The translations under genes and the position numbers were made by a program. Source: Gammaproteobacteria bacterium (lineage in GTDB: Bacteria; Pseudomonadota; Gammaproteobacteria; Steroidobacterales; GCA-2729495). Taken from it: 44,935 nucleotides of DNA. Position 1 is the first letter of the stretch. Each line of letters opens with the position of its first letter. Below the pieces are notes generated by a model. It was not told where the DNA came from, made no database searches, and was given only the letters and a program-made list of their open reading frames with translations. The stretch is from positions 1-44,935 of the forward strand of contig JAJFJS010000098.1 in NCBI GenBank assembly GCA_021773815.1, read 5' to 3'. Shown piece after piece: positions 1-12,269 of this stretch.

Positions 1-1456
1 GGCCTTGTAGGTGTTGATTGAATAGTCGCGGCTCACCGTCAGCCGGTGCAACAGGGGCAAAGGCCAATTGCCGATGCTGGGGCTTGTTGGGTTCGGTGTT
101 TACCTTTCCATCATCGAGGAAGTAGAAGCCATCAGGTGTGGCAATTCCAGCAGGAGCGTTAGCAAAGAAATTATCCGCGAATAGGTGAGCGTGGATTGCA
201 TCTGAAACCTGCTTTACCTGCGGATGTGTACGGCACAGCGGCTGATGCTCGTATAGGGTTTGTACTTCCTGTTCCAGTAACCGGTTGCGCTTCGATCGCC
301 AGTAGTCCTGCCAGCGGTAAAGGCGGATCCCGGTGGATATGATCTCAGAATCATTAAACCGACCGGAATAGTCCACCGCGATTTCTCGATGGGAATTAAA
401 ATCTTGACCGCCGTAGGCATCGTTCAGTGCTTTGTGGACGCTGCTCAGAAACTCCTGTTTCGAGAGTAGCTTGCCGCGCCCGGAATACTTTGCCGCCACC
501 ATCGCCATATCCGCGTCGTCAGCGTCGAACAGGTTTTTTAGTATGGCTATCCGGTCAATGACCTCACGCAGGTTATCCTGGTCAACATTATCTGCGATCC
601 AGTCGATGCTCTTTTGCCAGTCATGCGAACGTTTCCAGCCAGCTTCTTTAGCCTCATGGAAGACGGTGCCGAGGCCGACCAGATTCCTACCACGATGCCG
701 AAACCCCAAGCAGCGAGCCTCGCAGTCACCGAGCTGATACTTCGTTCCGCTGCTGCTCCATTCATCCCAGAGGTTGCCCATGCCGACAAAATCCAACGCC
801 ATGCCGATTCGGAGCCATGCGTCATAGTCGCAGTTGGGGTCAATAGCCTCGACCGCGCTCCGAATAACTGGTTCCAACATGTCGTTGTACCGGTCGTCAT
901 AATTCAATGATCGGACGTCATTCAGGCGGTATATCCAATGTGCAAGCAGCTCTGCTGGGAGGTCCTCGATCTTCGTCCAGTCGCCTTCCCATTCGTAGGG
1001 GCTGCCGTTCGGGTGGACAGATGGCGGCAAAACATCCTGAACCGTTAGGCCGTTTCGAGTACAGCATCGAAACTCGAAGCCATTGGCCTGATCATTGATT
1101 GTTATGAGGCTGAGTGGATCAATCTCGTGTGGCACATTGAAGATGACCTTGGTGCGATCTTTACGACCGCTGCTGATGCGGACTGAATCACTCAGAATGG
1201 CAGGCAGGTCTATTTGGAGTTTGTCGAAGTAAGCCTCTGCCAGTTCCATGTTGTCGATATCGAGCGCGCATGTACGTGACCACAGATGGGCAAGGCCGAT
1301 GCTGGCAACGCCAGTTAGCTTCTTCGAGTCGGTGATGGCCTTATTACGCTTGTTCCAGCCTTTGCTGCGAGGTCCTTTGCTTTTGGCGTCAATCGGGACC
1401 AGTACCCAACCATGCTTGATGTAACCAGCTGCGATCTCCTGCGTGGATTTTGTCAT
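1..1456 (-). CDS. Primase-polymerase (PrimPol + PriCT-2) of a mobile element, 3' end outside window
   Basis: An open frame starts at ATG 1456 (MTKSTQEIAAGY) and runs off the left edge, giving 485 residues without a stop. The N-terminal part matches the bifunctional DNA primase/polymerase fold: a short 'GWVLVPID' strand, the catalytic 'ALDIDN' motif near residue 65 and an 'SSGRKDRTKVIF' motif about 30 residues later. A PriCT-2 domain follows around residues 190-260 ('DYDAWLRIGMAL', 'LWDEWSSSGTKY'). The visible end ('APVAPADGEPRLF') resembles the start of a D5/P4-type helicase N-terminal region, so the complete protein is probably a primase-helicase that initiates replication of the element. 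Its start lies 2 nt after the stop of the AlpA-like gene, so the two are co-transcribed. The family is typical of P4-like satellites, plasmids and integrative elements. The fold is confident; the helicase part is inferred. Confidence 0.85.
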   Translation of the reverse strand, partial: MTKSTQEIAAGYIKHGWVLVPIDAKSKGPRSKGWNKRNKAITDSKKLTGVASIGLAHLWSRTCALDIDNMELAEAYFDKLQIDLPAILSDSVRISSGRKDRTKVIFNVPHEIDPLSLITINDQANGFEFRCCTRNGLTVQDVLPPSVHPNGSPYEWEGDWTKIEDLPAELLAHWIYRLNDVRSLNYDDRYNDMLEPVIRSAVEAIDPNCDYDAWLRIGMALDFVGMGNLWDEWSSSGTKYQLGDCEARCLGFRHRGRNLVGLGTVFHEAKEAGWKRSHDWQKSIDWIADNVDQDNLREVIDRIAILKNLFDADDADMAMVAAKYSGRGKLLSKQEFLSSVHKALNDAYGGQDFNSHREIAVDYSGRFNDSEIISTGIRLYRWQDYWRSKRNRLLEQEVQTLYEHQPLCRTHPQVKQVSDAIHAHLFADNFFANAPAGIATPDGFYFLDDGKVNTEPNKPQHRQLAFAPVAPADGEPRLFNQHLQG

Positions 1457-1458
1457 GG

Positions 1459-1770
1459 CTACTTGCCTCGCTTCTTGGCAACACGCTTTTTGACGGCGTT
1501 TCGGCATTGCTCCGCACGTTTTGCAGATTCCTCTGGTGTGATGGATTTGTCCTCACCAGTATTGCCATAGGCGGGGTGGTTTCTGATCCAATCGGCAACA
1601 TCAATGGCCAAGTACCGCACCGATCGATAACCGAGCTTTCGATACTTGGGGCCACCGCCTTTATGACGGAGTTGGGTCAGCGTGTTGACCGAGATGTGAT
1701 AGAGGGATTCAACCTCTTTGGGCTTGAGCGCTGCTTCAGGCGCGATCTGCATGAATTGAACGATAGACAT
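1459..1770 (-). CDS. AlpA/excisionase-like helix-turn-helix regulator
   Basis: A 103-residue protein starts at ATG 1770 (MSIVQFMQIAP), preceded by GAGGAA about 8 nt upstream. A TTG five codons earlier is possible but lacks a ribosome site. Residues 15-60 ('LKPKEVESLYHISVNTLTQLRHKGGGPKYRKLG') read as a winged helix-turn-helix of the MerR/AlpA/excisionase type, in which a short HTH picks a site and the GGGPKYRKLG wing follows. The tail is Lys/Arg rich. Such proteins act as excision factors or transcriptional activators of element genes and are usually encoded beside the primase, as here. Upstream lies a long inverted repeat followed by a T-run in the transcript sense, which may attenuate this operon. 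Confidence 0.75.
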   Translation of the reverse strand: MSIVQFMQIAPEAALKPKEVESLYHISVNTLTQLRHKGGGPKYRKLGYRSVRYLAIDVADWIRNHPAYGNTGEDKSITPEESAKRAEQCRNAVKKRVAKKRGK

Positions 1771-1803
1771 TGTTCGGTTCCTCAAGGGAAACCGACAGGC
1801 ACG

Positions 1804-1858
1804 AAAAAGGCGACTGCCGATACCCCAACTTTTAACGTTGAAGATCGAACAGTCGCCT
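1804..1858 (-). promoter_or_regulatory. Leader inverted repeat with T-run, possible attenuator of the alpA-primase operon
   Basis: On the minus strand AGGCGACTG (1858-1850) and CAGTCGCCT (1816-1808) form a perfect 9-bp inverted repeat around a 33-nt loop, followed directly by TTTTT (1808-1804). The loop holds a smaller CAAC/GTTG pairing. The structure sits about 35 nt before the AlpA-like start. A stem followed by a T-run in a leader suggests conditional termination. P4-type satellites control their primase operon by leader termination, so this is a reasonable but untested analogy. Confidence 0.4.
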
Positions 1859-2004
1859 AGTCGTTGATACTCAAGATCCCGGAATTCAATGTTTGGCGAG
1901 TGGGGACACCGGTAACCCCATCAGACTGAACTTGTGCTTAAGCTTACTTGAGTATCATCGCATTGAAAACCTTCTTATCATGGGAATATTCCTCTCATTC
2001 ATTT

Positions 2005-3273
2005 TCATTCCTTTACTGAACCCGCTGCGCGGTCAATTTGATCAGCAACCAACTGCGCCGCCTCTCGAACATCATCAACTTCCAGATGCTGATAATGCTG
2101 TGTGATGTCCTGCGGCCGGTGATTGACCAGGTATTTTTGCTTCGCATAGGTGATGTCAGCGCGTTCAGCCTGTGTGACGAATGTATGCCGCAGGGTATGT
2201 GTCGTGAATTGAACGCCCGACAGTTTGCTGGCTTTCTCGTAGTGATAACCGGCGCTGTCCATATAGGCTTTTTTGCCGCTGCATACCGCTGAAGGGAATA
2301 CATAAGCATAGCGAGGATTCTGTAGCCCCATGCCTGAATTGTCTCGGTGGAATTTGCGGTTGAGTAGTATCGCCTCTAGCTGGTGCGTGAAGGGCAGAAT
2401 CAGTTCCTGTCGATTTTTGGCTACTTCTGCAGGAATTCGGATTGTCCGATTCTCCCAGTCAACGTTTCCCCATTCCAGCGATCGTGCCTCGATACTTCTG
2501 AGGCCGGTATAGAGGCAGAGCAACAGGAAGTCCTGACCGAGTTCTCCCATGGGCATCAGTTTGCTGTATCGCTCTAACCGGACGCTGCTCATTTTCATGA
2601 TGCCTTCGTAAACGGCTGGTAAGTCGATTTGGCTGATTGCCTTGCCACGCTTTTTGGCGTTGTGCCAGCGTTTTCGATCTGAAAGGACGGAGACTGGGTT
2701 AGGCTTGTCCGTACTGAACCGGATAACGGTACTGAGTAGCTTCATGATTCCATCTGCCAGTACCTTACCGCCTTGTTCTCGTTTCTTGCCGTCGGAGCAA
2801 ATCATCCATCGCTTTGTGGTCAGTTCCTTGTGGCGATGCAAAATTTCATCCCGAGAAATCTGATCAACTCGTCGGGTCATCCAGTCTTTCAGATGGTGCT
2901 TTAATGACACGATGTAGTTCTTCTCGGTCGCTGGACTCATTTTGCCGTCAGCTATCCGGGAATTGACGTAGTCGTCTATGGCTGCTTCCAGCGTCGGCTC
3001 GATTTTGACGACTCCAGTACCAATTGCCTCATCTCGCGTATCGCGGGCCTTTTTTCGGGCCTCCTCCGGGGTCAGGACAGGGTAGTGCCCGACTGAGTAG
3101 CAATTGCTCTTGCTGCCTGCCTTCACAACGAAGGTGCGTCGCTTCGATCCGACCCGAACTCCGAACATTCGCTCCCGCTTGTCCCACACGTAATAAGTAT
3201 CCCGGCAGGACTTAGCGAGGGGTAGATTAGCGACTACTGACGGAGTGAGATTTTTGCTGAGTTGCTTCGCCAT
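2005..3273 (-). CDS. int: Tyrosine recombinase (integrase) of the integrative element
   Basis: This 422-residue protein has the P4-type integrase layout: an N-terminal DUF4102-like arm-binding domain (residues 1-90, with 'FGVRVGSKRRTFVV' and 'VGHYPVLTPEEARKKA'), a core-binding SAM-like domain (about 95-195) and a C-terminal catalytic domain. Catalytic residues can be placed: Arg259 in TGLRS, Lys286 in AKNRQE, His359-x-x-Arg362 in HTLRHTF, His385 in LVNHRP and the nucleophile Tyr394 in QHYQHL. All are present, so the enzyme looks active. It should catalyse site-specific recombination between the element and the 3' end of a tRNA gene. The tRNA-Lys fragment 166 bp upstream of its start marks that junction. 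The intervening 3274-3438 stretch is non-coding and AT-rich. It carries a 9-bp inverted repeat, GAAACAACC (3308-3316) and GGTTGTTTC (3370-3378), which could be arm-type or regulatory sites. Confidence 0.93.
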   Translation of the reverse strand: MAKQLSKNLTPSVVANLPLAKSCRDTYYVWDKRERMFGVRVGSKRRTFVVKAGSKSNCYSVGHYPVLTPEEARKKARDTRDEAIGTGVVKIEPTLEAAIDDYVNSRIADGKMSPATEKNYIVSLKHHLKDWMTRRVDQISRDEILHRHKELTTKRWMICSDGKKREQGGKVLADGIMKLLSTVIRFSTDKPNPVSVLSDRKRWHNAKKRGKAISQIDLPAVYEGIMKMSSVRLERYSKLMPMGELGQDFLLLCLYTGLRSIEARSLEWGNVDWENRTIRIPAEVAKNRQELILPFTHQLEAILLNRKFHRDNSGMGLQNPRYAYVFPSAVCSGKKAYMDSAGYHYEKASKLSGVQFTTHTLRHTFVTQAERADITYAKQKYLVNHRPQDITQHYQHLEVDDVREAAQLVADQIDRAAGSVKE

Positions 3274-3438
3274 TTCATTGCTCCCGATTGGCAGGGTTTT
3301 TGTCAGGGAAACAACCGCAGTTTCATAAAGGAACCAAAAGAAACCCGAAAGAACGACAGTCCCGAGAATGGTTGTTTCTTAAGGGAATCTTACTTTGAAA
3401 TGCGAATGAAAAGAAAGGGAAATGAATTCAGACCCGGC

Positions 3439-3483
3439 CTTTTAACCAATTGGTCGAAGGTTCGAGTCCTTCACGGCCCACCA
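3439..3483 (+). other. tRNA-Lys(UUU) 3' fragment = right attachment site (attR)
   Basis: The sequence starts at an anticodon loop CTTTTAA (3439-3445) and then reads as a tRNA-Lys 3' half: variable region, T-stem GAAGG (3456-3460), T-loop TTCGAGT, T-stem CCTTC (3468-3472), acceptor strand ACGGCCC (3473-3479), discriminator A and encoded CCA (3481-3483). No 5' half precedes it: the bases before the loop cannot form the anticodon stem with CCAAT. Tyrosine recombinases commonly integrate at tRNA 3' halves and regenerate the tRNA at the other junction. The fragment is therefore the distal junction, and the functional tRNA-Lys should be upstream of base 1. Identification as Lys rests on the UUU anticodon and close similarity to bacterial tRNA-Lys. 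Confidence 0.85.
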
Positions 3484-3521
3484 TTTTCAAGGATCCCGCA
3501 TCGCGGGATTTTTGAAAATGG
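3481..3521 (+). terminator. Hairpin 1 of the tRNA-tail array (terminator-like)
   Basis: The 5' arm 3481-3499 and 3' arm 3503-3521 pair over all 19 bp, including two G-U pairs, around loop ATC. The inner part ATCCCGC-ATC-GCGGGAT followed by TTTT looks like an intrinsic terminator. The outer part pairs the tRNA CCA with TGG. Confidence 0.8.
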
Positions 3522-3607
3522 CGGGTTGCTGTTGCACGAGGCTCTCGTTCGACGCAGCCCCGGTCATTTTTTAAAGAAAACAATCGCCGGGGTTCCTTCA
3601 CGGCCCA

Positions 3608-3648
3608 CCATTTTCAAGGATCCCGCATCGCGGGATTTTTGAAAATGG
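3608..3648 (+). terminator. Hairpin 2 of the tRNA-tail array
   Basis: Identical in sequence to hairpin 1: arms 3608-3626 and 3630-3648 with loop ATC, again starting at the CCA of the repeated tRNA tail. Confidence 0.8.
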
Positions 3649-3733
3649 CGGGTTGCTGTTGCACGAGGCTCTGGTTCGACGTAGTCCCGGACATTTTTAA
3701 AGAAGACACTCGCCGGGGGTCCTTCACGGCCCA

Positions 3734-3774
3734 CCATTCTTAAGAATCCCGCATCGCGGGGTTCTTAAGAATGG
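3734..3774 (+). terminator. Hairpin 3 of the tRNA-tail array, with compensatory changes
   Basis: Arms 3734-3752 and 3756-3774 also pair over 19 bp. Relative to copies 1 and 2, a T-A pair has become C-G and a C-G pair has become T-A, and wobble pairs have become Watson-Crick or the reverse. The structure is kept although the sequence changed (CCATTCTTAAGAA against CCATTTTCAAGGA). Confidence 0.8.
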
Positions 3775-3880
3775 TGAGTCGCTGTTGGACGAGGCTCTCA
3801 GTTCGACGCAGTCCCGGGCATTTTTAAAGAGAACACTCGCCGCGAGTCCTTCACGGCCTTGGATGTTCTTCACAGTCACG

Positions 3881-4069
3881 TCAATTGCAGCGGGCGCCAT
3901 ATCGATCGGCGTGGCAGGACGGGCACAGCGGCCGGGGCCGGTGATGTCGTGAGACGATCTGGGGAACCGGGGTCGTGCGCCCCGCGCGCAGGCAGTGGCT
4001 GCAGACGATCAGGTTAGTCAGTCTGCGCAGTAGTCCCAGTTCCACAGGCGCGGCAGTCGGGGTCGGCAT
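3881..4069 (-). CDS. Possible small zinc-ribbon protein (62 aa)
   Basis: This short frame (MPTPTAAPVELG...) contains two CxxC pairs, 'VCSHCLRAG' at residues 22-28 and 'LCPSCHADRY' at 48-57, about 23 residues apart. That spacing suits a zinc ribbon, and the pattern CxxC...hxxPLCPxCxxxxY resembles the small Cys-rich domain found in some bacterial signalling proteins. The start at ATG 4069 has only a weak GAGA upstream. It lies between the repeat array and a terminator, alone. No other support is visible, so it may be a chance frame in a 350-bp stretch that otherwise holds nothing recognisable. Confidence 0.4.
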   Translation of the reverse strand: MPTPTAAPVELGLLRRLTNLIVCSHCLRAGRTTPVPQIVSRHHRPRPLCPSCHADRYGARCN

Positions 4070-4213
4070 CGGGTGTCTCGCTGCATCGTATCCTCGACCA
4101 GCCTAACGGGCGCCGGCAGGCTGCAGCGCGACCTGTTTCGCAGTTTTGGAAAATATGGCGTCGATCCGAACGAGGCGCGCGGTCCTGCATTCCGGGAAAT
4201 TTCGCCGCCGGAA

Positions 4214-4242
4214 TAAAAAAAGCCCCGCGGAACGGGGCTTTT
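4214..4242 (-). terminator. Intrinsic terminator of the beta-barrel gene
   Basis: AGCCCCG (4221-4227) and CGGGGCT (4233-4239) form a 7-bp stem. It is flanked by an A-run on the plus-strand left side, which gives a T7 run in the minus-strand transcript, 21 nt after the stop of the 4263 gene. Confidence 0.9.
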
Positions 4243-4262
4243 CATCAATCGGTTCGACGGGG

Positions 4263-4994
4263 TCAGAAGTTATAAATCGCGTTAAGCGACAACATCCAGG
4301 GTTCGTCGATTTCCTTGATGTTGAAGTAATCGAGCTGGGCGCGAACTGAAAAGCCGTTTTCGGCATTGAAGTTGACGCCGAGCGCGCCCATCGCGTCCCA
4401 TCCGGATCCTTTGACCGACGTCGCGATCGGCGTGTTGATCGCGACCACCGTGCCGCCCTTTGGCGGGATAAATCCGCCGACGACCTTCTCGAAACCGTTG
4501 CCGTCGACGTCGGCAGCAACACCGCCGATTTTGGCCATGATCTCGAACGTATCGTTGATCGGAAAGAATCCCGTCAGCGCCGCGGTCCAGCCACTGGTCG
4601 GCAATTCGACGGTCCATGCGCTGGAACTGACGACGCTGGTCCCGCCGCCGCGCGTTGTTGTGCAGTCGCCGCTGGTGTCGGTGAAGCAATACGACCGTTC
4701 GACATCATAGGCCTTGAAATACCCGAGTTCGATGCCGGCATAGCGGATGATCCGGTAGCCGAGAAAGAAATTGCTGGCGATCGACGTCTTCTTGAAGTCG
4801 TCGTTGCCGGCGATGGTCTCGTTCTGCGGCGCCAGCCCGTTGCCCGAGATGTCGGTATCAATGCGCAGAAAGGCGGACCCGGCGCCGAAATAAATCCCGT
4901 CGTACCAAGCGTCCTTCGCAAACAGGCCGCCGTCGGCGGCGGCCAGCGGGCCGGACATTATGGCCAGCAGGGCAAATAAGGCTGCTTTCTTCAT
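4263..4994 (-). CDS. Outer membrane beta-barrel protein
   Basis: A 243-residue protein starts at MKKAALFALLAIM (ATG 4994, GGGGAG 9 nt upstream); a longer in-frame extension upstream is not needed. Residues 1-20 form a clear signal peptide with a cleavage site after PLAAA. The mature part alternates polar and hydrophobic residues in short strands ('FFLGYRIIRYAGIELGYF', 'AALTGFFPINDTFEIMAKIG', 'SVRAQLDYFNIKEI') and ends in Phe ('LNAIYNF'), the usual signal for outer membrane assembly. The layout and length match an eight-stranded OmpA/OmpW-like barrel. No OmpA peptidoglycan domain is present. Two Cys in 'SYCFTDTSGDCTT' may form a loop disulfide. A terminator follows. The ligand or role is unknown. 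Confidence 0.85.
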   Translation of the reverse strand: MKKAALFALLAIMSGPLAAADGGLFAKDAWYDGIYFGAGSAFLRIDTDISGNGLAPQNETIAGNDDFKKTSIASNFFLGYRIIRYAGIELGYFKAYDVERSYCFTDTSGDCTTTRGGGTSVVSSSAWTVELPTSGWTAALTGFFPINDTFEIMAKIGGVAADVDGNGFEKVVGGFIPPKGGTVVAINTPIATSVKGSGWDAMGALGVNFNAENGFSVRAQLDYFNIKEIDEPWMLSLNAIYNF

Positions 4995-5077
4995 TGGTTT
5001 TTTCTCCCCATCGACCGCGGCAGCGGGTCGATGGTTCTTGTTCTCGTACTCTCTCTCCAAAAGGGCGGCGCGGAACC

Positions 5078-5794
5078 TTATTCGATGATGCTGTCGCGCC
5101 CGAACAGCAGGTCGCCGAACTGCCAGCGGACACCGAGTTCGAGACCGGTCTCGCTGTCGAACATCAGTCCGCGGGCCAGTATCGAGAGTCCGTCGAATAC
5201 TTTGTAGTTGAGCCCGACCGTTACATCGCGGTTACTGACTTTGCCGACATCCTGATACTCGTAGCCAATCTGGACGTCGGCTCGGTCGGAGATGCTGCCA
5301 CGAAACATGATTTCGCCGGACCAGCCATCGTCGCTGATCGTAGCCGATGCGATATTCAGGTTTGACAGTTCCGTGTCAATAAAACTACCGCGCACGACAA
5401 GATCGACGTTTTCGCTGAGGCCGATCAGGTCGAGGCCGAGGTTGACGCCGACGCCGATTTTGTAGCCTTCGAAGTCCGCATCAAAGGTGCTGCCGGACGG
5501 ACCCGTATTGCAGTCCTTACAGCTGCCGTCGGTATATCCGAAGGCTTGCCCGCGCAAGTGCAGCCAAGGCAGGATTCCGATAGAGAGATCGATGTTCTCG
5601 CCTTCGATCTTGCCGTTGTTGTAACGAGCGTCGGATTTGGGATTGACGCCATACTTGACGTCCGTCCATTCGTAGCTGACGCCGACATAGGTGTAGCCGG
5701 GCCCGTCGGCACGGGCGACCGAGGTAACCGGAATGGAAACCGCCAGGGCGGCAAGTGCCATGCCCGCGGTCGGCCCGAGAAAGCGCGAAATCAT
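5078..5794 (-). CDS. Outer membrane beta-barrel protein
   Basis: A 238-residue protein starts at MISRFLGPTAGMAL (ATG 5794, preceded by GGGGG at 7 nt). The upstream in-frame extension is unlikely. The N-terminus is a signal peptide ending near SVARA. The mature sequence has barrel-type strands ('YTYVGVSYEWTDV', 'LDLSIGILPWLHLRGQAFGY'-like segments, 'VDLVVRGSFI', 'DVQIGYEYQDVG') and a disulfide-sized 'SCKDCNTG' loop. Length and pattern suggest an eight-stranded barrel related to the downstream 4263 gene in style but not obviously in sequence. The gap of 83 bp to that gene allows co-transcription. The C-terminus ends in SIIE rather than an aromatic residue, which is atypical. It is divergent from the TonB receptor gene across 5795-6175. 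Confidence 0.8.
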   Translation of the reverse strand: MISRFLGPTAGMALAALAVSIPVTSVARADGPGYTYVGVSYEWTDVKYGVNPKSDARYNNGKIEGENIDLSIGILPWLHLRGQAFGYTDGSCKDCNTGPSGSTFDADFEGYKIGVGVNLGLDLIGLSENVDLVVRGSFIDTELSNLNIASATISDDGWSGEIMFRGSISDRADVQIGYEYQDVGKVSNRDVTVGLNYKVFDGLSILARGLMFDSETGLELGVRWQFGDLLFGRDSIIE

Positions 5795-6175
5795 AGATAT
5801 CCCCCTGGACGTTTTGGTGACGCTAGTTATGGATTGTCCGACCGGGACTATAACCAATCATTTGCGGGCGTGCCACAAGGTATTGTCGCGTTGTCAGGGA
5901 GTCGGGGCCGGCGCCGGAGCTACTTCCCCTGATCCGGCGAGTAGCCTATTATCGGTCTGCGGAGAAATCAGGCTGTACTTAAGTAATGCGGCGGGGTAGT
6001 CATCGGCACTGGAGAGTCCGATGGCGCTGGATAGTTTAATCAGGTATTCCTGCCTGGTTGGCAGGATTACATGCCCCCCCGATCTGCATGCGCAAGAATA
6101 CTGTCGATTCGCGTCCGAATCGCCGAGTGTGCGATTCCTGCAGAAAAAAGGCCAAAGTTCATCAAGGGGAGATTC
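5795..6175. promoter_or_regulatory. Divergent intergenic region between barrel gene and TonB receptor
   Basis: This 381-bp gap must hold promoters for both directions. I see no confident -35/-10 pair and no operator palindrome. A minus-strand frame near 5894-6066 reads protein-like but has no usable start codon. Confidence 0.4.
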
Positions 6176-9043
6176 ATGTTCAAGTCGAGATGCCTGATCG
6201 GCACCAGCAGCGCAGCATTGATCGTGTCTGGCATGTTGCTGTCAGTACCGATCGCGGGTTGGGCGCAGATCGAGGAGATCGTCGTCAGTACCCGCCGCAA
6301 GGAAGAAAACGTGCAGGACGTGCCGATCGCCGTCGATGTGATTTCATCCGAACAGATTGCGCGGCAGGGCATATCCGATCTCTCCGACGTCACCAAGCTG
6401 TCGACCAGCGTGCAGTTCGATACGTCTTTCGGTCCCTCGGATACGCGCATCGCGATCCGTGGCCTGTCCAATACGCGCGGTCGTTCGAACGTCGCGTTCC
6501 TCGTCGATAATGTCGATACGACGACCGAGAACTTCGTGTCCGCTGGTTCAGGCCTGCTCGCCAATCAGCGGCTGCTCGTCGATGTGGCCAATATCGAAAT
6601 CGTCAAGGGCCCGCAGAGCGCGCTGTTCGGGCGCGCCGCATTCGCCGGTGCGATCTCTTATACAACCAAGGATCCGGGCGATGAGTTTGAGGGTGAGATG
6701 CGACTGTCGGCCGGTGATGCCGGTCTGTTCGAGGTCGGCGGTGCGGTCGGTGGGCCGGTCGCGGGACTCGAGGATGTGCTTGGCATCCGCGTCAGCGGGG
6801 CCTATTGGACCGAAGACGGTTTCTACACGAACACCGTATCCGGCAGCAACCTCGGTGGCGAGGAGGGCTGGGGCACGGCGCTAACCGCGTTGTTTACACC
6901 GGCGGACAATGTCGAACTCAAGTGGCGTACCGAATACAGCGACAGCAAATATGACCAGCGACCGGGCATCCGGCTCGGCGGCGGCACGGACGGTACCGGC
7001 CTCGTGTTCTATCCGTACCCGGTCGACCCGTTGCTGATTCAGGGCAGCAGTGCGACGACGACCCGACTCGCCGATTTCGGCCAGTATTGTCCCGACGACA
7101 TCAAGGCGCAGCTGGCGGCGGCCGGTGAGACGCGGCCGGGTATCTGTCAGAACGCCGGCTACGGCAGCGGCGGCGGTCGGCGGCCGACGCTCAGCGAAGA
7201 TCCGGTCACGGGCCAGGATTACCGCGGCACCGAGACGCAGTTGTTGCGCTCGACGATGAACGCGTCGATGGACTTCGATTTCGGCACGTTCTCGTCGATC
7301 ACCGGCTTCACGGACTATGACGCGTTCGATGAACTCGATCAGGATTACCAGGCCGTCGGCCGGCCCGACACGCTGAAATCGCACCAGCAGGCGCGCTCCG
7401 ACCTCTCGACGTCGCAGTACAGCCAGGAACTGCGTTTCGCGTCGAGTTGGGAAAGCCCGCTGCAGGTTACGCTCGGCGGGTTGTACTGGAAAGAAGAGCG
7501 TAAGCAGGAAGACCTGAATTTCATTATTTCATGCATCGAGAACGGCAAGAACCCGGCGACTGGCGTCGTCTGGCCGGGTTCGCCGGTCAGCGGCATCTGC
7601 GACGGCACGAACAACACGATCTCGGGATGGCAGGAACACGCGCTCACACAGTTCCCGTGTCTCTATGATGCCAGCGGTGTGCCGGTGCCGGACCCGGCGA
7701 CGGGCACCTGCGTGCAGACGTCGCGCACGGCCGCGCCCTGGCGCGCCGACACCGAGCACAAGTCCGCGTATTTCAAGCTTGAATTCGACCTGTCGGACAC
7801 GTGGACCGTCGAATTCGAGAACCGGTTCGTCTGGGAGGATTTCAATATCCTGCGGCCGAACTTCAGTTCCTGCACGAGCCTGTTCTTCCCGTTCGGTACA
7901 ACTGCCTTCATTCCCGGCACCAAGGAAGGCCCGGTCACGAACGCCGCGCAGGATCTCGTCTGCACGAGCGAGCGCGTCATGAACCCGAACCTGCCGGCGC
8001 CGCCGGCCGATGCGAACGGCAACGACTGGTTCTTGCTGCAGGGTTCGGAAAAATCGAGCTACAACACGCCGAAGATCACGTCGCGCTGGCAGGCCACGGA
8101 CGACATGCAGGTCTACCTGTCGTGGGGTATCGGCCAGAAACCCGGCGGCATCAACACGCTGTCTTCGGGCGGCACCGCGACGAACATCGAAGATGAGCGC
8201 TTCGACTCCGAGCAAGTCACGGCATGGGAAATCGGTATGAAGTCCGACTGGGAACTGGCCGGCTTCCTGCGTTTCAACGGGTCGGTGTTCCTCAACGATT
8301 ACACCGACAAGCAGGTCGGCACGCAGATCGTGCAGGATCAGAGCGGCGTGCCGGCGCTGCAGCCGCGAATCGTCAATGCGGCCGGTGCTCAGGTCTGGGG
8401 CACCGAGCTCGAGGCGGTCTGGCAGCCGTCGTTTGCCGAGGGACTCGTCCTCAGCGCCAACTATACGTACCTGCACGCTGAGTTCACGGACTACGACGAT
8501 GACACGCGTTCGCTTGTTCGGGCGGCGCTGAACGGACAGTGCAACCTGATCTACAAGGACACCGACGATAACGTCGTGGCGTCGCTGCCGACCGGTTTCG
8601 ATCCGTTCAATCCGGCGGCCAGCGATCTGACGTCGTTCTGTCGTATCAACCAGAAAGGCAAGCGCCTCGAGCGGACGCCCAAGCACGCGTTCGTCAGCAC
8701 CGCGCAGTACACGGCGCCGCTGCTCGAGACGGGTGTCGACTACTTCGTCGAGCTGTCCGGGACCTATCAGGGCGACCGGTACCTGGATGTCGATAACGCC
8801 GTCAAGTTCGACGACTACGTGCTCGTCGATACGCGAGTCGGCCTGACGCAGGACAACTGGGAGTTTCTGGTCTATGTCGACAACCTGTTCGACGATGACA
8901 CGATCCAGACCGGCGGCAGCGGCCCGGACTTCGCCAAGCAGGTTACGGAGCTTGGGTTCACGTCCGGACTCGGCGTCACGCACTTCTTCGGCGTATTGCC
9001 CGATCCGCGCACGTTCGGCGCCAAGCTGATCATGCGGTTCTGA
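6176..9043 (+). CDS. TonB-dependent outer membrane receptor
   Basis: A 955-residue protein starts at MFKSRCLIGTSSAAL (ATG 6176, AAGGGGAG 6 nt upstream). A signal peptide ends near GWAQ. The TonB box 'EEIVVSTRRKEENVQDVPIAV' region is followed by the plug (residues about 45-165, 'IAIRGLSN', 'VEIVKGPQSALFG'-type signature seen here as 'IEIVKGPQSALFGR') and a long 22-strand barrel ending in 'TFGAKLIMRF', with the terminal Phe needed for assembly. The class with 'RRKEENVQDVPIAV' is widespread in oligotrophic proteobacteria and imports diverse hydrophobic or aromatic ligands as well as iron complexes. Several Cys pairs lie in extracellular loops. There is no TonB/ExbBD or regulator nearby. The ligand is unknown; the catabolic operon from 20809 is a candidate partner but 12 kb away. 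A terminator follows. Confidence 0.93.
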   Translation: MFKSRCLIGTSSAALIVSGMLLSVPIAGWAQIEEIVVSTRRKEENVQDVPIAVDVISSEQIARQGISDLSDVTKLSTSVQFDTSFGPSDTRIAIRGLSNTRGRSNVAFLVDNVDTTTENFVSAGSGLLANQRLLVDVANIEIVKGPQSALFGRAAFAGAISYTTKDPGDEFEGEMRLSAGDAGLFEVGGAVGGPVAGLEDVLGIRVSGAYWTEDGFYTNTVSGSNLGGEEGWGTALTALFTPADNVELKWRTEYSDSKYDQRPGIRLGGGTDGTGLVFYPYPVDPLLIQGSSATTTRLADFGQYCPDDIKAQLAAAGETRPGICQNAGYGSGGGRRPTLSEDPVTGQDYRGTETQLLRSTMNASMDFDFGTFSSITGFTDYDAFDELDQDYQAVGRPDTLKSHQQARSDLSTSQYSQELRFASSWESPLQVTLGGLYWKEERKQEDLNFIISCIENGKNPATGVVWPGSPVSGICDGTNNTISGWQEHALTQFPCLYDASGVPVPDPATGTCVQTSRTAAPWRADTEHKSAYFKLEFDLSDTWTVEFENRFVWEDFNILRPNFSSCTSLFFPFGTTAFIPGTKEGPVTNAAQDLVCTSERVMNPNLPAPPADANGNDWFLLQGSEKSSYNTPKITSRWQATDDMQVYLSWGIGQKPGGINTLSSGGTATNIEDERFDSEQVTAWEIGMKSDWELAGFLRFNGSVFLNDYTDKQVGTQIVQDQSGVPALQPRIVNAAGAQVWGTELEAVWQPSFAEGLVLSANYTYLHAEFTDYDDDTRSLVRAALNGQCNLIYKDTDDNVVASLPTGFDPFNPAASDLTSFCRINQKGKRLERTPKHAFVSTAQYTAPLLETGVDYFVELSGTYQGDRYLDVDNAVKFDDYVLVDTRVGLTQDNWEFLVYVDNLFDDDTIQTGGSGPDFAKQVTELGFTSGLGVTHFFGVLPDPRTFGAKLIMRF

Positions 9044-9070
9044 CGGACCACGCTATTCGCCTGCATTCAG

Positions 9071-9102
9071 GGCCCCCGGTCGTCGCCGACCGGGGGCCTT
9101 TT
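9071..9102 (+). terminator. Intrinsic terminator after the TonB receptor
   Basis: GGCCCCCGGTCG and CGACCGGGGGCC form a 12-bp perfect stem with loop TCGC, followed by TTTT, 28 nt after the receptor stop. Confidence 0.92.
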
Positions 9103-9136
9103 CCGTCCGGCCCCTGATCGCGTTACGATCGGTCCA

Positions 9137-11146
9137 ATGGCGGTCTCAATAACTAACTGCAAACCATACAGCGACCGGGTTGACGCGGCGCTCGCCGCAG
9201 CGCTCGCCTGGGCCGATGCCGATCAGCATGCCGACGGGTACTGGGTCGGCGTGCTTGAGTCGAACGCCTGTATGGAGGCCGAATGGCTGCTGGCCTTCCA
9301 CGTGCTCGGTCACGAGTATCCGTGGGCGGAAGAACTGGTGACCGGGATCCTGCGGCGACAACGGCCGGACGGCGCGTGGGAGACGTATCACGCGGCGCCG
9401 GCCGGGGACATCAATGCGACCGTCGAGTGCTATGCGGCGCTGCGCGCGCGCGGCTGGTCCGCCGATGCCGAGCCGCTGCAGCAGGCTCGGGCCTGGATCG
9501 TTGCGCACGGGGGGCTGTCGGCGACCCGCGTGTTCACGCGCATCTGGCTGGCGCTGATCGGCGAGTGGCCCTGGTCCAGAACGCCGAGCCTGCTGCCGGA
9601 AATCATTCATCTGCCGCTGTGGGCGCCGTTCAATATCTATCGCTTCGCCTCGTGGGCGCGCGCAACGCTCGTGCCGCTGACGCTATTGTCGGCGCGCGCC
9701 CATGCGCGGCCTTTGCCGGACGGTTGCCGCCTCGACGAGTTGTTTCCCGAGGGTCGCGAACGGTTCGACTATGCGACCGGTCGGCGCGGTGGCTGGTACT
9801 CGCGCCGCGGCTGGTTTCGGGCCGCGGATCGATGCGTCAAGCGGCTCGTCGGCGGCCGCCGGCTGCCCGGTCGCGCGCGCACCGTGCAGTGTTGCATCGA
9901 TTGGATCGTCGCTCGGCAGGACGCCGACGGCACCTGGGGCGGCATCCAGCCGCCATGGATCTATTCGCTGATGGCCCTGCATGCCGAAGGTCGGACACGT
10001 GACGATCCGGTCATCGCACGCGGTCTCGCCGCGCTCGATACGCACTGGTCGGTGCGGCGGCATGGCGGAAGAATTATTCAGGCGAGCCAATCGCCCGTCT
10101 GGGATACGGCGCTGATGCTGATCGCGCAACTCGATTGCGGTCGCACGCCGGCCGCACGCCCGGCGCTGCAGCGGGCCGTCGAGTGGTTGCTGGCGCACGA
10201 AGTGCGCACGGCGGGCGACTGGCAGGTTCGGTCACCCGGGGTCGAACCGGGCGGCTGGGCGTTCGAGCATGCCAACGCGCATTATCCGGATGTCGACGAT
10301 ACGGCCGTCGTCGTTTTGCTGCTGGCCCGACTGCGGCACGACATGCCGGATCCGGGGCGGATCGACGGCGCGATCGACCGGGCCGTGCGCTGGCTTACGG
10401 CGATGCAGTCGCGTAACGGCGGTTGGGCGGCATTCGATCGCGACAACGACAGTCAGCTGCTGGCCGACATGCCGTTCTGCGATTTCGGCGAAGCTGTCGA
10501 TCCGCCGAGCGCCGACGTTACGGCACATGTCCTCGAAGCGTTCGCGGCGCTCGGGCGCGATGGCTCGGACCCGGCCGTGCAGCGTGGCATCGCCTTCATC
10601 CGTGGCGAACAGGAGCCGGCGGGCAGCTGGTTCGGACGTTGGGGCGTCAACCACCTGTATGGCACGGTCGCCGTGCTGACGGCGCTGCGGGCGGTCGGCG
10701 AACCACGCGATGCGCCGACCATCATCCGGGCCGCCGACTGGCTGGCCGGGCAACAGAACGACGACGGCGGCTGGGGCGAGAGTTGTGCGTCCTATATGGA
10801 CCCGGCGCAAATCGGCCGCGGCGTCAGCACGCCGTCGCAGACCGGCTGGGCGCTGATGGGGCTCATTGCGGTCGATGCCGATCGGTATGCACCGGCGATC
10901 CGGCGCGGGACCGAATTCCTGGTCGCCGGTCAGGACGGCGGCACCTGGCCGGAGCCGCAATACACGGGCACGGGCTTCCCCGGCTATGGCATCGGCGCCC
11001 GAGCCGCGATCACAGATGCCGCAGCATGGGCGGCACGCCTGCAACAAGGCGGCGAATTGCAGCGCGGGTTCATGATCAATTACAACCTGTACCGGCACTA
11101 CTTCCCGCTGGCCGCCCTCGGCCGGGCGCGTCGGGCGATGCGTTAG
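9137..11146 (+). CDS. shc: Squalene-hopene cyclase
   Basis: A 669-residue protein of normal length for the family. It cyclises squalene to hopene/hopanol at the membrane. The catalytic acid motif D385-V-D-D ('YPDVDDTAVV') is intact. Multiple QW repeats are visible, such as 'QRPDGAWETY', 'QDADGTWGG', 'QSRNGGWAAF', 'QNDDGGWGE' and 'GQDGGTWPEP'. The conserved 'GGWAFEHANAHYPDVDD' and 'FYGTGFP'-type end (here 'YTGTGFPGYG') are also present. An overlapping frame on the minus strand is a shadow. The gene converges on hpnH with a 10-bp gap, so the cyclase is transcribed apart from the minus-strand hpn genes although it is functionally linked. Its promoter must lie in the 34 bp after the terminator, or transcription reads through it. 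Confidence 0.96.
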   Translation: MAVSITNCKPYSDRVDAALAAALAWADADQHADGYWVGVLESNACMEAEWLLAFHVLGHEYPWAEELVTGILRRQRPDGAWETYHAAPAGDINATVECYAALRARGWSADAEPLQQARAWIVAHGGLSATRVFTRIWLALIGEWPWSRTPSLLPEIIHLPLWAPFNIYRFASWARATLVPLTLLSARAHARPLPDGCRLDELFPEGRERFDYATGRRGGWYSRRGWFRAADRCVKRLVGGRRLPGRARTVQCCIDWIVARQDADGTWGGIQPPWIYSLMALHAEGRTRDDPVIARGLAALDTHWSVRRHGGRIIQASQSPVWDTALMLIAQLDCGRTPAARPALQRAVEWLLAHEVRTAGDWQVRSPGVEPGGWAFEHANAHYPDVDDTAVVVLLLARLRHDMPDPGRIDGAIDRAVRWLTAMQSRNGGWAAFDRDNDSQLLADMPFCDFGEAVDPPSADVTAHVLEAFAALGRDGSDPAVQRGIAFIRGEQEPAGSWFGRWGVNHLYGTVAVLTALRAVGEPRDAPTIIRAADWLAGQQNDDGGWGESCASYMDPAQIGRGVSTPSQTGWALMGLIAVDADRYAPAIRRGTEFLVAGQDGGTWPEPQYTGTGFPGYGIGARAAITDAAAWAARLQQGGELQRGFMINYNLYRHYFPLAALGRARRAMR

Positions 11147-11156
11147 CGGGTCTTGT

Positions 11157-12269
11157 TCAGGCGTCTTCGGGAACGTGCAATCGTTCGTCGAGTTGCCTTC
11201 CGGCCGTAACGACGGATTCCGCAACGGGGAGTTCCGGCGCCATCGGACCCTGCGTGCGCGGCCCCGACCAATGGGCGCGCAACGCCGCCAGCGGATGGGC
11301 CAGTGTGTCCGCGACGGCCGTGCCCTCATAGCCACAATGCGCCATGCAGTTGTTGCACTTCACGTTGCGCCCGGTGCCGTAGCGTTGCCAGTCGGTCGTG
11401 GCCATCAGGTCGGCGAAACTGTCGGCGTAACCCTCGTCGACGAGCAGGTAGCAGGGCCGTTGCCAGCCGAACACGTTATAGGTCGGATTGCTCCATGGCG
11501 TGCATGCGTAGGTCCGGTTGCCGGCGAGGAAATCCAGGTACAGACTCGAATGGTTCAACGGCCAGCGTGCGCGCCGTTCGCGCCCGAGCGAAAAAATATC
11601 ACGGAACAGTCGTTTCGTCTGGCGTCGGCCGAGAAAAATATCCTGGCGCGGCGCATGCTGATAATCGTAACCGGGTGATACCGTAATGCCCTCGACACCG
11701 AGACCGGTGGCGAAGTCGAAAAATGCGGCCGCTTCCCGCGCGTCGTGGTCCGTGAACAATGTGCAGTTGACGTTGACGCGAAAACCACGCGCGATCAATA
11801 TTTTTATTGCTCGCACGGCCTTGTCGAAGACGCCGTCCTGACAGACGGATTCATCGTGCCGCTCCCGCAGTCCGTCGAGGTGCACCGAAAACGTCAGGTA
11901 CGGGGAGGGCTCGTAGTCATCGATCTTCTTTACAGCGAGCAGTGCATTCGTGCACAGGTAGACAAATTTCTTGCGCGCGACGATACCGCGGACAATCTGC
12001 GGCATCTCGTGATGAATCAGCGGTTCGCCGCCGGGAATCGAGACGATCGGCGCATCGCATTCGTCGACTGCGGCCAGCGCCTGATCGACGCTGAGCCTCC
12101 GGCGCAGCACATTCTCGGGATAATCGATCTTGCCGCAACCGGCACAGGCGAGATTGCACTGGAACAGCGGTTCGAGCATCAGCACCAGCGGGTAGCGGGC
12201 GCGTCCGCGAAGCTTCTGCTTCAGCAGGTAGCCACCAACGCGCAATTGCTGAATCAAGGGGATACTCAT
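11157..12269 (-). CDS. hpnH: Adenosyl-hopene transferase, radical SAM
   Basis: A 370-residue protein from MSIPLIQQLRVGGYL (ATG 12269). The radical SAM cluster motif C38-N-L-A-C42-A-G-C45 is complete, followed by 'SIPGGEPLIH'. A C-terminal Cys group ('KCNNCMAHCGYEG') matches the SPASM-like tail of HpnH. HpnH joins the 5'-deoxyadenosyl group to diploptene, giving adenosylhopane, the first step to extended C35 hopanoids. It lies 10 nt downstream of hpnG, as the last gene of the minus-strand hopanoid cluster. Confidence 0.95.
   Translation of the reverse strand: MSIPLIQQLRVGGYLLKQKLRGRARYPLVLMLEPLFQCNLACAGCGKIDYPENVLRRRLSVDQALAAVDECDAPIVSIPGGEPLIHHEMPQIVRGIVARKKFVYLCTNALLAVKKIDDYEPSPYLTFSVHLDGLRERHDESVCQDGVFDKAVRAIKILIARGFRVNVNCTLFTDHDAREAAAFFDFATGLGVEGITVSPGYDYQHAPRQDIFLGRRQTKRLFRDIFSLGRERRARWPLNHSSLYLDFLAGNRTYACTPWSNPTYNVFGWQRPCYLLVDEGYADSFADLMATTDWQRYGTGRNVKCNNCMAHCGYEGTAVADTLAHPLAALRAHWSGPRTQGPMAPELPVAESVVTAGRQLDERLHVPEDA

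Follow-up and report, generated by a model that had tools for sequence, protein, structure and literature searches.

An integrated element, a tRNA-Lys remnant and three tandem units

We analysed a 44,935-nt stretch of DNA, hereafter the window, in which a tandem array begins at a tRNA-Lys remnant beside an integrase gene. The features are as follows.

2005–3273, minus strand: tyrosine-type integrase of the integrated element (Pfam PF00589, 5e-20; Arm-DNA-bind_3), just left of the remnant
3439–3486, plus strand: 3' part of tRNA-Lys(UUU), from the anticodon loop to CCA (3481–3483), with three further bases; an attachment-site remnant and not a gene, by homology to contigs C74 and C68
3481–3521, plus strand: sealed hairpin 1, CCA and 16 more bases paired, ATC loop
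3484–3610, plus strand: unit 1 (127 nt), comprising the rest of the hairpin, a degenerate inverted copy of the tRNA end, GTTCGA at 3547–3552, a 40-nt insert and a tail copy
3595–3610, plus strand: tail copy 2, 16 nt, exact by sequence comparison
3608–3648, plus strand: sealed hairpin 2, from repeat comparison and folding
3611–3736, plus strand: unit 2 (126 nt), with the full T-loop half GGTTCGA at 3673–3679
3721–3736, plus strand: tail copy 3, 16 nt, exact by sequence comparison
3734–3774, plus strand: sealed hairpin 3, differing from hairpin 1 by two double base-pair changes
3737–3858, plus strand: unit 3, with GTTCGA at 3801–3806 and a truncated tail at its end
3848–3858, plus strand: tail copy 4, truncated before ACCA

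No tRNA gene was found in the window by ARAGORN, nor any Rfam match at the gathering cut-offs. A sequence-only reading of this DNA had placed a tRNA-Lys ahead of the repeats; the tail does come from tRNA-Lys, but what precedes the array is no gene, positions 3439–3483 being the 3' part of a tRNA-Lys(UUU). All 48 bp of the remnant are identical to a remnant on C74, and 92% identical to the intact tRNA-Lys(UUU) on C68, where an integrase gene lies 48 nt behind the tRNA. C74 holds a third copy of the tRNA-Lys attachment block. We infer that C68 carries attL and the window attR, and that C74 is the junction of two elements, the contigs being unjoined. Near the attachment copies on C68 (positions 1–12000; L091) and C74 (L092) are genes for an integrase, an HsdR N-terminal-like protein, a D12 adenine methyltransferase and a HicB-like antitoxin. 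Elsewhere in the window, a squalene-hopene cyclase gene (9137–11146, plus strand; Pfam SQHop_cyclase N and C) has a TonB-plug protein gene, two outer-membrane beta-barrel genes and a DUF3463 radical-SAM gene nearby.

The 16-nt tail CCTTCACGGCCCACCA occurs in the window at 3468–3483 (within the remnant), 3595–3610 and 3721–3736, and a fourth copy, CCTTCACGGCC, stops before ACCA with TTGG next; the recurrence claimed earlier at 3468, 3595, 3721 and, truncated, at 3848 is thus borne out by the sequence. As direct repeats of 108 nt each, spaced by 127 and 126 nt, the second and third copies are 95% and 74% identical to the first. The T-loop is split in the units, with GTTCGA followed by about 40 nt and then GTCCTTCACGGCCCACCA. 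A window unit therefore consists of a CCA-pairing hairpin, a worn inverted tRNA end, the left T-loop half, a short insert, and the right T-loop half with the T-stem and acceptor 3' strands and CCA, an anatomy that reproduces the 3' end of the unit's tRNA. An origin of the repeats by chance or artefact was ruled out by the repeat identity and by hairpin folding against shuffles.

Sealed hairpins and a second array behind tRNA-Lys(CUU)

Each of hairpins 1–3 has 19 pairs and an ATC loop, its stem starting from the first C of CCA. The folding energies were -24.5, -24.5 and -27.3 kcal/mol (z = -6.6, -6.6 and -9.9), calculated on 41-nt stretches that cut the outermost pair, and none of 200 shuffles folded as well. 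Hairpins 1 and 2 contain two G-U pairs each and hairpin 3 one, so that the length and the CCA start given earlier for these 19-bp hairpins hold, whereas the word 'perfect' does so only if G-U pairs are counted. Folding of unit 1 also paired the acceptor strand CGGCCC, ahead of CCA, with GGGUUG beyond the hairpin, making the sealed stem longer than had been noticed before.

The two double base-pair swaps reported between copies 1 and 3 are present (alignment columns 20/50 and 22/48). Across five units from the two tRNA-Lys loci of the source genome, three of the 42 consensus pairs show a double change, and two of those three lie within the sealed hairpin. These paired changes had been taken as proof of selection on RNA structure. 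They suggest as much but do not prove it, because the units are few and all from one genome, and template switching could also produce them. The persisting G-U pairs mildly favour selection at the RNA level.

Sealing of this kind, by our own criterion, was found at 27 of 63 RtT-linked tRNAs against 19 of 233 other tRNAs; E. coli tyrV is without a sealed hairpin. Very long CCA-sealing hairpins without tail repeats were observed behind the source genome's own Gln-CUG (L082), Leu-CAG (L085) and Ser-CGA (L088) tRNAs and at two loci of relatives (L024, L111), the palindrome continuing into the acceptor 3' strand at L085 and L024. Two consecutive long perfect palindromes, unrelated in sequence to the window units, stand behind the tRNA-Lys(CUU) of a congener (genome G002, L015:1640–1909). 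Such hairpins raise the question of how the 3' end of a tRNA is matured when its CCA starts inside a stem of 19–25 pairs.

A second array was found on contig C50 of the same genome, where an intact tRNA-Lys(CUU) within a Pro-Arg-His-Lys-Leu tRNA cluster is followed by two units homologous to those of the window. Its single tail copy reads CCTAC, which equals the tail of its own tRNA-Lys(CUU). The tails of the window array read CCTTC, the same as the remnant, while the present-day intact tRNA-Lys(UUU) on C68 reads CCTGC. The tail copies thus track the local tRNA at both tRNA-Lys loci, and the CCTTC shared by array and remnant implies that the window array predates the integration and has not been homogenised since. 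The sequence-only reading had held that its case would fall if relatives without the mobile element lacked the repeats; the element-free C50 locus, in the same genome, carries them. Delivery of the repeats by the mobile element was ruled out, since the C50 locus has them without the element and the window tails match the pre-integration tRNA. On the minus strand of C50 (L008:1850–1975), unit 2 behind tRNA-Lys(CUU) enters a long palindrome, AAAGGGGTCAGGGTAAAAATA...TATTTACCCTGAACCC, a near copy of which stands behind the tRNA-Pro of the same cluster; it looks like a dispersed palindromic repeat.

Searches for window-type Lys units elsewhere gave little. The exact tail-pair pattern occurred in 2 of 396 genomes of the order, namely the source genome and one stray place in G243 around which no tRNA was seen by eye. 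No sequence homologues of the window units were found in phages. In 99 relatives, the matches listed covered the tRNA part alone, and no unit was found behind the 29 tRNAs scanned in three incomplete congeners. A place in Paenibacillus, from a pattern scan of genome contigs, was taken as chance after reading. In one of the three congeners (G003, L016:1740–1790) a tRNA-Lys 3' remnant lies 224 nt downstream of the intact tRNA-Lys(CUU), which looks as though a small element once sat in the stretch between and has since gone.

As to how such an array may work, a polymerase leaving the tRNA gene would run into one hairpin as it enters each unit and could stop in stages. Longer transcripts would carry one tRNA-like 3' end per unit, which tRNA 3'-processing enzymes might trim; small RNAs would thereby be set free, as has been described for E. 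coli rtT. Staged termination and the supply of tRNA-like 3' ends on read-through transcripts would be the likely role of the units. The C50 array would be the live copy; the window copy is probably silent, because the integrated element separates it from the tRNA 5' half and the promoter. Counting against such a role, a scan of the plus strand from 3300 to 4100 returned no terminator and no sigma-70-like promoter. The T runs are within the stem: the 3' arms of hairpins 1 and 2 contain T5, and in hairpin 3 and at C50 the T run is interrupted (TTCTT).

The RtT family and the copied tRNA end

The architecture had been likened to E. coli tyrT and its rtT RNA, and the likeness stood up. In the E. 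coli control, exact tails follow tyrV at +163, +341 and +519 and four spacers match the RtT model RF00391 with 133–138 bits, and two relatives have, behind tRNA-Lys(UUU), RtT-type units with the tail of that tRNA (L148, L154). The window itself gave no match to RF00391 at the gathering cut-off (45 bits), and the family was absent among the 17 weak Rfam matches to 3300–4000 up to E 10. Among the 99 relatives, 12 matched RF00391 at E 0.01 or better, five of them above the cut-off, with none in the source genome. The matched units of the relatives sit behind Ser, Gln, Lys and Arg tRNAs, and every one with a detectable tail copy has the tail of its own host.

A covariance model, R1, was built from an alignment of 15 units running from GGTTCGA to CCA. 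Its structure was drawn by hand after trimming and realigning, RNAalifold on the untrimmed alignment having missed one helix. The four helices comprise 24 pairs; pairing holds in 90.2% of cells and fell to 46.6% or less when the structure was slid; 18 of the 24 pairs show double changes, a number that none of 500 shuffles reached, the structure having been drawn from the same alignment. R1 matched 159 of 396 order genomes, in 42 of 72 genera (E 0.001), 98 of 369 class genomes (E 1e-5) and 42 of 299 phylum genomes, where the 25 outside the class all belong to one family. These counts are lower bounds, because just 9 to 13 candidates were scored per genome.

We then looked at 103 R1 matches (30 + 44 + 29), taking as upstream tRNA one on the same strand within 900 nt; R1 contains the tail columns and its 15 seed units, and several of the 103 are seeds or seed neighbours, so that the counts over them are not independent. 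Behind a tRNA lie 74 of the 103, and in 53 of these the tail is exact over the last 16 nt of the host tRNA (nine more have one or two mismatches, one has three and 11 have four to eight). The exact tails belong to tRNAs of 12 anticodons: Ser UGA, GGA, CGA and GCU; Gln CUG and UUG; Glu UUC and CUC; Arg UCG and ACG; Lys UUU; and Tyr GUA. Identity reaches back 19 nt in 41 of the 53, 18 nt in ten and 17 nt in two, and continues for at most 2 nt past CCA in 28; from this reach and this early stop, the copied block corresponds to tRNA nt 58–76. The segment before GGTTCGA, in turn, pairs best with the tail of its own host (14 units, 0 of 20,000 permutations). A larger test gave the same outcome (48 units, 20 tails, 0 of 20,000 permutations), the own tail being best in 14 units and among the top three in 25, and a control segment inside the core showed no preference for the host tail (3777 of 5000).

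The other 29 matches have no upstream tRNA. By eye, several of them are tRNA 3' halves (Lys at L238; Arg at L180, L187, L207, L211, L215 and L222) and others are complete tRNA genes whose T-loop holds the core. Excising the core at a fixed cut yielded a recognisable tRNA in 3 of the 103. With all cuts allowed, the yield was 7 of 103: six of the 29 (L175, L185, L221, L223, L241, L255) and one of the 74 (L228). The restored tRNA at L221 was read with an odd anticodon, and the tails at L175 and L185 are damaged. In five of the six (L175, L185, L223, L241, L255) an intact tRNA of the same kind lies just downstream. That excision restores tRNAs identifies the frame as a T-loop split after nt 58.

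In the source genome, a scan of its 48 distinct tRNAs turned up further tail copies outside tRNAs, an exact one at +176 behind Arg-CCG and one with a single mismatch at +189 behind Ser-UGA; a third, behind Arg-CCU at +1272, looks like an ordinary attachment remnant. R1 clearly places the Ser-UGA unit in the family (66.8 bits, E 6e-15), and the Arg-CCG unit is borderline (18.8 bits, E 0.012), with an alignment score above all 300 shuffles. The GTTCGA motif on its own is weak evidence, as it stands 40–110 nt behind 8 of 47 own tRNAs. The Ser-UGA unit (L083:1361–1468, minus strand) also has a weak match to Rfam AaHKsRNA22 (25.2 bits; cut-off 39.8), which may itself be RtT-related.

The window gave no match to R1 up to E 10, and the C50 units reached 7.8 bits (E 7.7). 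Aligned with RtT units, the middle parts of the three window units and of C50 did not rise above shuffles, 819, 666, 364 and 765 of 1000 shuffles, respectively, scoring as well, and the core hairpins P3–P6 between the T-loop halves were not seen in the window units. Membership of the window units in RtT was thus rejected by RF00391, R1 and shuffle alignment alike, and the likeness does not extend to the family models. Other traits are those of the build. An own tail through CCA closes the unit in two exact copies and one truncated copy in the window and in one exact copy at C50, and the C50 array lies directly behind an intact tRNA-Lys(CUU), the window array behind a 3' remnant only. Pairs do form between the inverted copy and the tail, with other tails pairing as well or better in 16 of 52 cases for window unit 1, 16 of 52 for unit 2, 5 of 52 for unit 3 and 20 of 52 for C50. 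In an anchored identity test, Lys tails tied for best with other tails in the window units and led at C50. No host preference showed for the Arg-CCG and Ser-UGA units of the same genome (32 and 24 of 52 tails as good or better).

Tentatively, and with the balance somewhat against it, we propose that RtT is a widespread family of tRNA-bound cassettes, in which a four-hairpin core sits in the T-loop after nt 58 and the frame copies nt 58–76 and the inverted 3' end of the host, each unit mimicking the tRNA end of its neighbour; in the window form the core would have been lost or replaced, with the frame persisting and still copying the host tail. If so, there would be either a mobile or gene-converting cassette with T-loop specificity, or tRNA mimics competing for tRNA 3'-end enzymes. 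What rtT does has been an open question since 1991; the paper of Bosl and Kersten from that year and earlier work on tyrT are the founding rtT papers. If RtT units copy the end of their own host across many tRNAs, their function becomes testable by asking which enzyme reads that end, and the range of hosts from Ser to Lys offers natural swaps for doing so. For genome annotation, the lesson is that a tail repeat following a tRNA is not automatically the scar of an integration.

Other explanations and known systems

Our main reading, to which we assign a probability of about 0.5, is that this stretch of the window is the former downstream flank of a tRNA-Lys(UUU) gene and carries a tandem array of three RtT-like trailer units. 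Alternatively, slippage or unequal recombination may have duplicated a tRNA terminator with the adjoining 127 bp, the tail being caught by chance and the units having no role beyond that of a duplicated terminator. Such passive duplication would account for the near identity of the two C50 units, and equally of window units 1 and 2, for last copies that end at arbitrary points (CCTTCACGGCC in the window, the palindromic repeat at C50 unit 2), for window units without the conserved RtT core and for a Lys array known from one genome only. However, many genomes show this frame and this 58–76 boundary again, behind tRNAs of 12 anticodons, three further tRNAs of the source genome included, which is not expected by chance, and tails that stay exact though their flanks have diverged are partly seen (in the 28 units whose identity ends within 2 nt of CCA). 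We consider passive duplication unlikely.

The tail block of nt 58–76 could instead be a recombination site, the units being tiny integrative elements or spare sites for T-loop integrases, a use that the sequence-only reading had also raised. The shared block spans exactly T-loop to CCA, and a block of this extent is the kind used by T-loop integrases; the T-loop position of the cores is shared between whole tRNAs and the 3' halves of different tRNAs, and an integrase gene adjoins the window array. Yet the element beside the array used a longer block, from the anticodon loop, the sole junction seen being 3439–3486, of which the tail copies hold no more than about 19 nt. The C50 array is free of any element, no integrase was found among ten ORFs at eight core-bearing loci, and the fourth window tail has no CCA. 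Spare attachment sites are for these reasons not favoured, and the recombination-site explanation as a whole appears improbable. Very improbable, lastly, is that the hairpins are DNA-level palindromes, which template switching during replication generates and keeps perfect, with paired changes uninformative on RNA function: such switching can create paired double changes in RNA genes (PMC8794818), and the palindrome extends into the acceptor strand in some tRNAs (L024, L085), but hairpins 1 and 2 and the C50 locus retain G-U pairs, which DNA-templated repair would remove, and four separate helices covary in the wider RtT family.

Among known systems, BIME/REP palindromes share with the window array their short, hairpin-rich repeats; in PMC2965389 they are described with terminator or attenuator activity, and some BIMEs as resembling rtT. 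They are dispersed, whereas the window unit is confined to two tRNA-Lys loci of the source genome. RtT RNAs are linked to many tRNA operons and gave Northern signals near Asn- and Lys-tRNA genes in Actinobacillus (PMC4986893), so tRNA hosts besides Tyr were already known for RtT. The Arrc20 and Arrc21 RNAs of Actinobacillus pleuropneumoniae from that source resemble the window units as RtT-family RNAs linked to Asn- and Lys-tRNA genes, but are placed upstream of the tRNA genes, and the excerpts of PMC4986893 make no mention of host-matched tails or of the T-loop position. Equally, no description of either was found in the excerpts of PMC2965389 and PMC11623569 or in the literature searched, which covers few older papers.

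The closest comparison for the three-unit array is with RtT itself. Like RF00391 at E. coli tyrT/tyrV-tpr, the window has tandem units behind a tRNA, the own tail through CCA at the unit end, a GTTCGA T-loop half upstream of the tail copy and an incomplete last unit. The E. coli units are 178 nt long against 127 nt in the window and have four core hairpins that the window units are missing; the window units, in contrast, have the 19-pair CCA-sealing hairpin that E. coli tyrV lacks. The RtT-type units of the two relatives (L148, L154) share with the window a tRNA-Lys host, a sealed or near-CCA hairpin, the split T-loop and an exact tail copy. They keep the core, whereas in the window some 40 nt separate the T-loop halves, and this insert did not align with RtT units better than shuffled sequences did. 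Because the window units keep the split T-loop, the sealed hairpin and the tail copy without the core or a model match, we file the array as an RtT-like variant in build and not as an RtT member by test.
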